Of a stretch of DNA of 64,000 nt, positions 32,301-35,300 are shown piece by piece. The notes beneath the pieces are model-generated. The model saw only the letters and a list, made by a program, of their open reading frames with translations, had not been told where the DNA came from and did no database searches. Within the stretch, counting starts at the first letter, position 1, and each line of letters begins with the position of its first letter. Source of the stretch: Salvelinus alpinus. Taxonomy: Eukaryota > Chordata > Actinopteri > Salmoniformes > Salmonidae. The stretch lies in the NCBI RefSeq assembly GCF_045679555.1, contig NC_092094.1, forward strand, positions 11,904,819 to 11,968,818, written 5' to 3'. A program made the translations under genes and the position numbers.

Positions 32301-35300
32301 TAGAGGGTACACACTTCAGGGCTTTATGAACTGTAGAAAATGAGAAAGCAGAGAAAAACACCACTCACCACTTTCTTTACACAGGACGAATAGGAACTCT
32401 GCTGCACAGTTCTTGACATCAGTGTCAATGTTGGTCATCAGACGAACAAGCTTGTTACGAAGGGCGTTCCCCACTTCTGGTAGATTCTTCACGTCCCGCA
32501 GAGGAGGGAGGACCTACACATACACACACACACACACACACACACACACACACACACACACACACACACACACACACACACACACACACACACACACACA
32601 CACACACACACACACACACACACACACACACACACACACACACACACACACACACACACACACACACACACACACACACACACACACACACACACACACA
32701 CACACAAATGAAGAACCAACTCAATGGGACATTCAGTAATTGACATGCAATTGGATGAATGATGAGATGAAACGTCCAATCACCTACCTTCATCCTGAGG
32801 AACTTCCTGGTCTCCCTGTGGATGCGGGCGCTCTCAGTCAACAGGTTAAGAGAGGGGAGCATGGTCTCCTTCAGTTTCTTGCCCTGGAAACCCATACACA
32901 TAACTGTTATTAGACAGATAATACAACAACCTCTTCAGCTAGCAGCTAGACCCACACCGACCGATACGGTGGGTGTTACTTGACAGATATAATCAAAGTC
33001 TCAAACAAAATTTGGCCGAGATGAATTATTGCCATGTCTCTTATGGATGAGACTAGACTGTTTCATTACTGAGGCCTTCCAGCTGTGTCCTGGTTGTTTA
33101 CCCAGATCCCCAAAGACACCTCGTAACAACCTCCTTCAACAACAACATCCCATTTGGAGAGGTAATCATATCCCAACCACAGAGCCAGACACCCTCTGCA
33201 GGGACATTATTACATCACCTGTAAACACCTCGGTGGATGGCACACAGAGAGCAGCTCCAGGAGCAAAGACTCTTCAAGAGATCCAAGAGATGGCAATAAA
33301 CTGATACACACTAATGCACGTCCAAACAATGTGTGTATGCAACGGTTTATGCCACCTTTATGAAAACACGTTGTCTATGTAATGCAGATTAGAGTTTTCC
33401 TTCATTCCATTTTAGGGCACCGTAAACTACGCCCACTGACCGTTGAGCTTTCATCCGACCAATCGCATTAGTTCTGCCCTCGAGGCAAAGATGCCATCAG
33501 AACAAGATTGAAATCTCCACTGAGCATTTCTAATGGCATGTCAACCTGTTGTTGAGGGTTAAAACCCAGCTCACCCTGTCTAGCCTCTTCTCCATGTACT
33601 CCAGGAGCATGTTGACGGCATCTCAACCTGTTGTTGAGGGTTAAAACCCAGCTCACCCTGTCTAGCCTCTTCTCCATGTACTCCAGGAGCATGTTGACGG
33701 CATGTCAACCTGTTGTTGAGGGTTAAAACCCAGCTCACCCTGTCTAGCCTCTTCTCCATGTACTCCAGGAGCATGTTGACGGCATCTCAACCTGTTGTTG
33801 AGGGTTAAAACCCAGCTCACCCTGTCTAGCCTCTTCTCCATGTACTCCAGGAGCATGTTGACGGCATCTCAACCTGTTGTTGAGGGTTAAAACCCAGCTC
33901 ACCCTGTCTAGCCTCTTCTCCATGTACTCCAGGAGCATGTTGACGGCATCTCAACCTGTTGTTGAGGGTTAAAACCCAGCTCACCCTGTCTAGCCTCTTC
34001 TCCATGTACTCCAGGAGCATGTTGACGGCATCTCAACCTGTTGTTGAGGGTTAAAACCCAGCTCACCCTGTCTAGCCTCTTCTCCATGTACTCCAGGAGC
34101 ATGTTGACGGCATCTCAACCTGTTGTTGAGGGTTAAAACCCAGCTCACCCTGTCTAGCCTCTTCTCCATGTACTCCAGGAGCATGTTGACGGCATCTCAA
34201 CCTGTTGTTGAGGGTTAAAACCCAGCTCACCCTGTCTAGCCTCTTCTCCATGTACTCCAGGAGCATGTTGACGGCATCTCAACCTGTTGTTGAGGGTTAA
34301 AACCCAGCTCACCCTGTCTAGCCTCTTCTCCATGTACTCCAGGAGCATGTTGACGGCATCTCAACCTGTTGTTGAGGGTTAAAACCCAGCTCACCCTGTC
34401 TAGCCTCTTCTCCATGTACTCCAGGAGCATGTTGACGGCATCCATGTTGACCCCCATGTATTCTATTGAGCCCTGCTGAACCTTGGGCATCAGTAGCACA
34501 TCCAGACAGGACAGAGGGAGGTTCCCCAGTAGGTTCAGCGAATGACTGCAGCCCAGGAGAAACACAAAGGGTTATCACAGGAATGCAGCCCAGGAGAAAC
34601 ACAAAGGATTTTCACAGGACACAGTTTAGCTCAGGTCAAACTCAATTCCTGGAGGGCAAAGTGTCATCGGGGTTTCGCTGCTCCCTTACTTGATTGAACA
34701 ATTAAGGTCAACCTGGTCATCACCTGGCTGTCCAGGCCTTAATTGGACACAAATTGAAAGGAAATAACAAAACCAGCAGAGACATGGGACAGCCCTCCAG
34801 GAAGTGAGTTTGACACCCCTGATTTAGGTTCAGAACGCCTTTACTAAGATAATAAGAGCTGTTACCTGTGAAACTCCTCTGTGTCGTCCTGTGCGTCAGC
34901 GTTGCTCATCAGACAGTGTCTGAGGATGGCTCCCAGGTGTCTGAACGCCGCCGCCTCCTCCTATAGGTTCAGCAGAGGAACTGTGATTGATTATCATTAT
35001 ATTGATGTATGTAAACAACACTATGCAAAGTTTACAGTATACAGTAATATGCTATGGTGGACAGGGTTAGAGCCAATTCCATTTCAATTCAGTTTACCTC
35101 CTGCATTGATAAAATTGACCCAAACCCTGATGGCGGATCCACTCTTCAAGTGCTCACCTCGTCCACCTCCCGGCGGTTGGCGTCGTAGGTGATATTGAAG
35201 AGGATCTTGAGGATCTCCATGGCTCTCTCGATCTTCTCCCGGCTGAGAGGGGGCAGTTCGGCCGGTTCCTCAGAGTCCGGATCGACCTCCACCCCGGCCC

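Follow-up and report, generated by a model that had tools for sequence, protein, structure and literature searches.

Eleven near-identical copies of an exon-intron junction in ric8a: a probable minisatellite spanning a 5' splice site

The window analyzed here, a stretch of 64,000 nucleotides, carries on its minus strand a conserved gene, ric8a, encoding a guanine nucleotide exchange factor that is also a chaperone of G-protein alpha subunits. We assembled its model manually, guided by similarity and by splice signals, and obtained 598 codons with no internal stop (Table 1). The encoded protein matches the Pfam Ric8 domain (PF10165) across positions 1-446 of the 447 in the profile (E=3e-125, 419 bits) and the Ric-8A chain 6vu8 along residues 4-551 of 598 (E=1.3e-174, 585 bits). 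This combination of a full Ric8 domain with near full-length Ric-8A similarity identifies the gene as ric8a, the name already given to it in a preliminary description made from the sequence of the window. The exon number used there for the boundary of interest, exon 6, likewise agrees with the rebuilt model, in which exons 1 and 2 are placed upstream. Elsewhere in the window, inspection by eye revealed minus-strand ORFs resembling a Tc1-type transposase (40072-41141) and a reverse transcriptase (46672-48165), the latter running through a stretch of Ns. Two near-identical stretches (98.8%) are also present, at 52433-52861 and 63572-64000, and nearby ORFs resemble what we take to be a two-pore channel.

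Table 1. Coordinates of ric8a and of the repeat arrays at its splice sites
Feature	Position in window	Strand	Remarks
ric8a coding span	23150..45765	minus	11 exons, 598 aa
ric8a exon 1	45765-45682	minus	weak similarity and splice-phase fit
ric8a exon 2	41931-41884	minus	weak similarity and splice-phase fit
ric8a exon 3	36227-35940	minus	
ric8a exon 4	35547-35158	minus	
ric8a exon 5	34960-34866	minus	
37-bp, 2-copy duplication	34547..34619	minus	ends one base short of exon-6 acceptor boundary
ric8a exon 6, 151 nt	34545-34395	minus	last 47-48 nt belong to unit 1; productive donor after 34395
82-bp tandem array	33535..34442	minus	11 complete units and 5-bp ATGCC remnant
ric8a intron 6, 1511 nt	32884..34394	minus	contains units 2-11, hence ten extra donors
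ric8a exon 7	32883-32788	minus	common downstream partner of all exon-6 donors
ric8a exon 8	32513-32369	minus	
ric8a exon 9	32110-31966	minus	
40-bp, 3-copy array across exon-9 donor	31855..31974	minus	three TCA/gtgagt
ric8a exon 10	31691-31572	minus	
ric8a exon 11	23384-23150	minus	weak similarity and splice-phase fit

The boundary between exon 6 and intron 6 is occupied by a tandem array, which TRF reports at 33535-34442 with a period of 82, 11.1 copies and 99% matches. A script resolved it on the minus strand into 11 complete 82-bp units extending from 34441 to 33540 (unit starts at 34441, 34359, 34277, 34195, 34113, 34031, 33949, 33867, 33785, 33703 and 33621), followed by a partial twelfth copy reduced to ATGCC at 33539-33535. 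Variation between the units is confined to their last base: units 9 and 11 end in C and the other nine in G, a total of two departures, both at this position, over 902 bp. AGG/gtgagc, in which the exon-6 end meets the intron-6 start (the slash marks the splice boundary), recurs in all 11 units. Counted from ATGCC, a unit comprises 47 exonic and 35 intronic bases; the division into 48 and 34 proposed earlier is obtained if the shared G preceding ATGCC, seen at nine of the ten internal junctions, is included. Both the 11-copy, 82-bp architecture with its recurring donor and the derivation of the array from a true exon-intron junction of ric8a, as put forward in the preliminary description, are upheld, the former by TRF and the script and the latter by the unit alignment and the gene model. 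When a two-unit query (164 bp) was searched against the same genome (2.37 Gb, 928 contigs), at least nine matches were recovered, and those listed all fall within the array; these counts are lower bounds as the search passes over words of very high frequency. Phage records, as expected, gave no close match to the exon-6 region.

Translation of the alternative transcripts established that donor 1, which gives the full 598 aa, is the sole productive outcome among those tested, as had been supposed. The use of donor 2 adds 82 nt and shifts the frame, leading to a stop after 391 codons that falls within exon 7 and not, as had been thought, at the TAG of the array. That TAG does exist, but it sits in unit 3 rather than in the second unit when the true exon is taken as unit 1, and is read with each of donors 3-11, giving a stop after 404 codons. 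The claim that any later donor shifts the frame is correct for donor 2, for example, but not for donors 4, 7 and 10, which insert 246, 492 and 738 nt and keep the frame, with the TAG still being read. Skipping of exon 6 results in a stop after 305 codons. The premature stops resulting from donors 2-11 precede the last exon junction by 471-1170 nt, and a premature stop well upstream of this junction is the usual configuration for nonsense-mediated decay (NMD).

The boundary array lies in a gene that is itself rich in minisatellites. TRF arrays with a period of at least 10 make up 49.7% of the ric8a span and 24.9% of the window as a whole; for the part of the window lying outside ric8a the figure is 11.4%. 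By comparison, they cover 1.2% of the 56 kb surrounding the other four Ric8 loci in this genome, a baseline sample that is small, non-random and gene-biased. Because minisatellite fills half of the ric8a span, a junction-spanning array is not unexpected in this gene. A second such array crosses the exon-9 donor, and use of its donor 2 or 3 brings in a stop after 481 codons; the occurrence of two donor arrays in one gene is, however, a post hoc observation. There is also a 37-bp duplication beside the exon-6 acceptor, the other copy of which was judged by eye to be without AG. We considered an enrichment of arrays at splice sites and rejected it: two of 20 ric8a splice sites lie within arrays against 9.9 expected upon circular shifting of all arrays (3.3 without the 7.5-kb array), the exon-6 acceptor being left out of the count as it is one base outside the 37-bp duplication. 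Splice sites in arrays are rarer than coverage predicts, with a share of 0.016 of the shifts giving two sites or fewer, which hints that arrays at splice sites might be selected against rather than neutral. The 7.5-kb array is a 21-bp minisatellite in intron 10 (23558-31189), with a plus-strand frame open for 2543 codons, which probably reflects no more than a unit length that is a multiple of three. Outside the gene, a related 53-bp minisatellite occurs at 49213-49334 (2.3 copies) and 58385-59779 (26.4 copies).

To place the array among its relatives we used a PF10165 search of the same genome, in which 24 candidates were scored and 19 matches were obtained, belonging to the gene in the window, copies on C1 and C6, and two ric8b loci, on C9 and C15. 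The C1 copy is divergent, with 44-76% amino-acid identity across the tblastn pieces. On C6 the copy resembles a pseudogene: it appears broken, and tblastn gives no piece for exons 6 and 7, although exon-7-like sequence is visible there by eye. In both the C1 paralog and the ric8b gene on C9 the exon-6 donor is found in a single copy at what is, by eye, the same codon, as GACAGG/gtgagg (L028:5772) and GACAAG/gtaaga (L031:6585), respectively. The C1 paralog does have a 12-bp, 3.3-copy repeat (L028:5807-5846), which begins 35 bases past its exon-6 donor and does not span it. A close duplicate preserving the ancestral single-copy intron was not present among the Ric8 family matches, nor was a retrocopy with real junctions noticed among them. 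The exon-9 donor of the C1 paralog (L028 ~6842) was seen by eye to lie about 15 nt earlier than in the gene in the window and in the C9 ric8b, a possible case of intron sliding.

Because the C1 paralog and the C9 ric8b share a single donor at the same codon, unit 1 can be taken as the old junction, and we infer that the ancestral intron 6 was single-copy. The near-identity of the units points to recent expansion or homogenization, as was surmised from the outset, and the array is best read as a young minisatellite spanning a 5' splice site. The pentamer ATGCC is shared between both ends of the array and the single-copy flank, with one occurrence in exon 6 and one in intron 6. Slippage or unequal exchange between the exon-6 ATGCC and the intron-6 ATGCC 82 bp further on could have seeded the unit, and recent growth to 11 near-identical units would then have copied the 5' splice site. 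Under this model, related fish would be expected to have one unit, ending GACATGCCATTAG, at the orthologous intron 6. Of the two bases seen at the variable position, C, present at the outer edge and in unit 9, seems to be the original one at the junction, with G having perhaps arisen later and then spread. The near-perfect identity of the units might also be taken to suggest an assembly artefact, with the true locus having one or few units. However, the locus lies within an 87.5-Mb contig, and exact short repeats are usually collapsed rather than expanded in assembly. A published draft assembly was aberrant for one amphioxus array of comparable kind (PMC3087553); on balance, we regard such an artefact as quite improbable.

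The main puzzle is how the splicing machinery chooses between the donors of the array, and a plausible standard answer can be given. The donors of the array are identical, and their U1 pairing energy of -9.0 kcal/mol ranks fourth among the ten donors of the gene; special donor strength was therefore rejected as an explanation. A second donor-like site, CAG/gttgag, is weaker (-7.3 kcal/mol) and passes the threshold in nine of the 11 units. Exon definition is expected above flanking intron lengths of ~250 nt (PMC9225289). As both introns neighboring exon 6 exceed this value (320 nt for intron 5 and 1511 nt for intron 6), recognition of this exon by exon definition is expected, and ric8a, with its equal donors, shares the situation to which the cross-exon proximity rule of that study applies. 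The same work describes minigenes with two identical strong donors (MaxEnt 10.9) placed 52 nt apart between long introns, in which the upstream donor was used exclusively; when both donors were weakened, larger exons were skipped (PMC9225289). Among natural human pairs of near-equal donors the upstream one is preferred in 60% of events, the long-intron class being on the upstream side, whereas the preference goes to the downstream donor in about 60% of all human 5' events when strength is disregarded (PMC9225289). Given the lengths of the introns and this published bias, first-donor use becomes the default expectation. The comparison has its weak points: those systems comprised two engineered donors or natural pairs (PMC9225289), whereas ric8a has eleven natural donors 82 nt apart, and these are middling rather than strong. 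Thus, mainly donor 1 is expected to be used, and some later-donor use or skipping of exon 6 is possible. The earlier alternative of strict first-donor choice or graded NMD is right in that donor 1 alone is productive, but probably no special device needs to be invoked, as exon definition would favor the upstream site.

We therefore consider it likely, from the sequence and from the behavior of published donor pairs, that the array is a slippage-born minisatellite and a tolerated passenger, with the first donor being mainly used. Exon 6 would be recognized across the exon, pairing its acceptor with the proximal donor 1, and units 2-11 would be removed together with intron 6. Later-donor use or exon skipping would run into a premature stop, and such leakage would merely be lost to decay; the passenger itself would probably be variable in length. 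A different possibility is that the array serves as a rheostat, wherein donors 2-11 are partly used, NMD destroys the resulting transcripts and copy number tunes the level of Ric-8A. That all ten extra donors yield stops in the position typical of NMD, and match donor 1 in both sequence and U1 pairing, is consistent with such a role, and the upstream preference in natural human genes is not absolute (PMC9225289). Nevertheless, exon definition favors the upstream donor (PMC9225289), the sequence bears no sign of selection for the array, and the near-identity of the units suggests youth, making a rheostat unlikely. Less likely still would be that an unstable copy number determines what fraction of ric8a transcripts is lost to NMD, such that Ric-8A varies between individuals, or between cells if the array is somatically unstable.

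Arrays of this type have precedents, and the original description of those called mirages is reportedly an amphioxus Adh paper. Mirages occur in the amphioxus Adh3 and globin genes, where exon-intron boundaries, both 5' and 3', are duplicated in tandem in the manner of a minisatellite; the units measure 10-160 bp and repeat the splice signals (PMC3087553). Their length is unstable both between haplotypes and somatically; BflGb6, for instance, has six units in one haplotype and three in the other, with 81-100% identity (PMC3087553). The boundary array in ric8a is borne out by the sequence, and is a striking example of this already described kind of structure. Three sequence-level features of mirages are found in it, namely a tandem repeat across an exon-intron boundary in a gene whose reading frame is open, a unit length inside the reported range (PMC3087553), and splice signals in the units. 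As in mirages, the gene is otherwise intact and the units may be homogenized; as for the exclusion of edge units, edge unit 11 and inner unit 9 share the rare C and edge unit 1 has the common G, with a single position being variable. Where the ric8a array differs from the amphioxus mirages is in the near-identity of its 11 units, in the intactness of every donor and in its location in a fish-type gene (PMC3087553). Furthermore, RT-PCR of Adh3 and globin suggests that mirages leave regular splicing undisturbed (PMC3087553), a type of support specific to the amphioxus arrays.

Human segmentally duplicated genes offer a second parallel, as internal tandem repeats at their exon-intron boundaries, also minisatellite expansions, account for 27 intron modifications (PMC2812944). 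These human repeats change transcripts and are found in recent paralogs, unlike ric8a, for which the Ric8 family search recovered no close duplicate. Likewise, known tandem duplications that copy a splice motif represent the same type of event, but in ric8a an existing intron was lengthened and no new intron is seen. These systems raise the possibility that the copies are on their way to becoming new exons or introns, the exonic pieces of units 2-11 being recruited now or later, in line with a model proposed for amphioxus globins (PMC3087553) and with the ability of human boundary repeats to generate novel introns (PMC2812944). However, the recruited exonic pieces would be 47 or 53 nt long, as counted by eye, and would break the frame, and the AG sites of the units have what we judged by eye to be a weak pyrimidine tract; we view this outcome as very improbable.

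Among the matches listed in the open-licence literature, none reported the ric8a array or described mirages in a fish, and the present case extends boundary minisatellites to an apparent fish gene. With eleven identical 5' splice sites, one of which is productive, the ric8a array is a natural counterpart of the engineered competing-donor minigene, and would test cross-exon proximity in vivo across a distance series.
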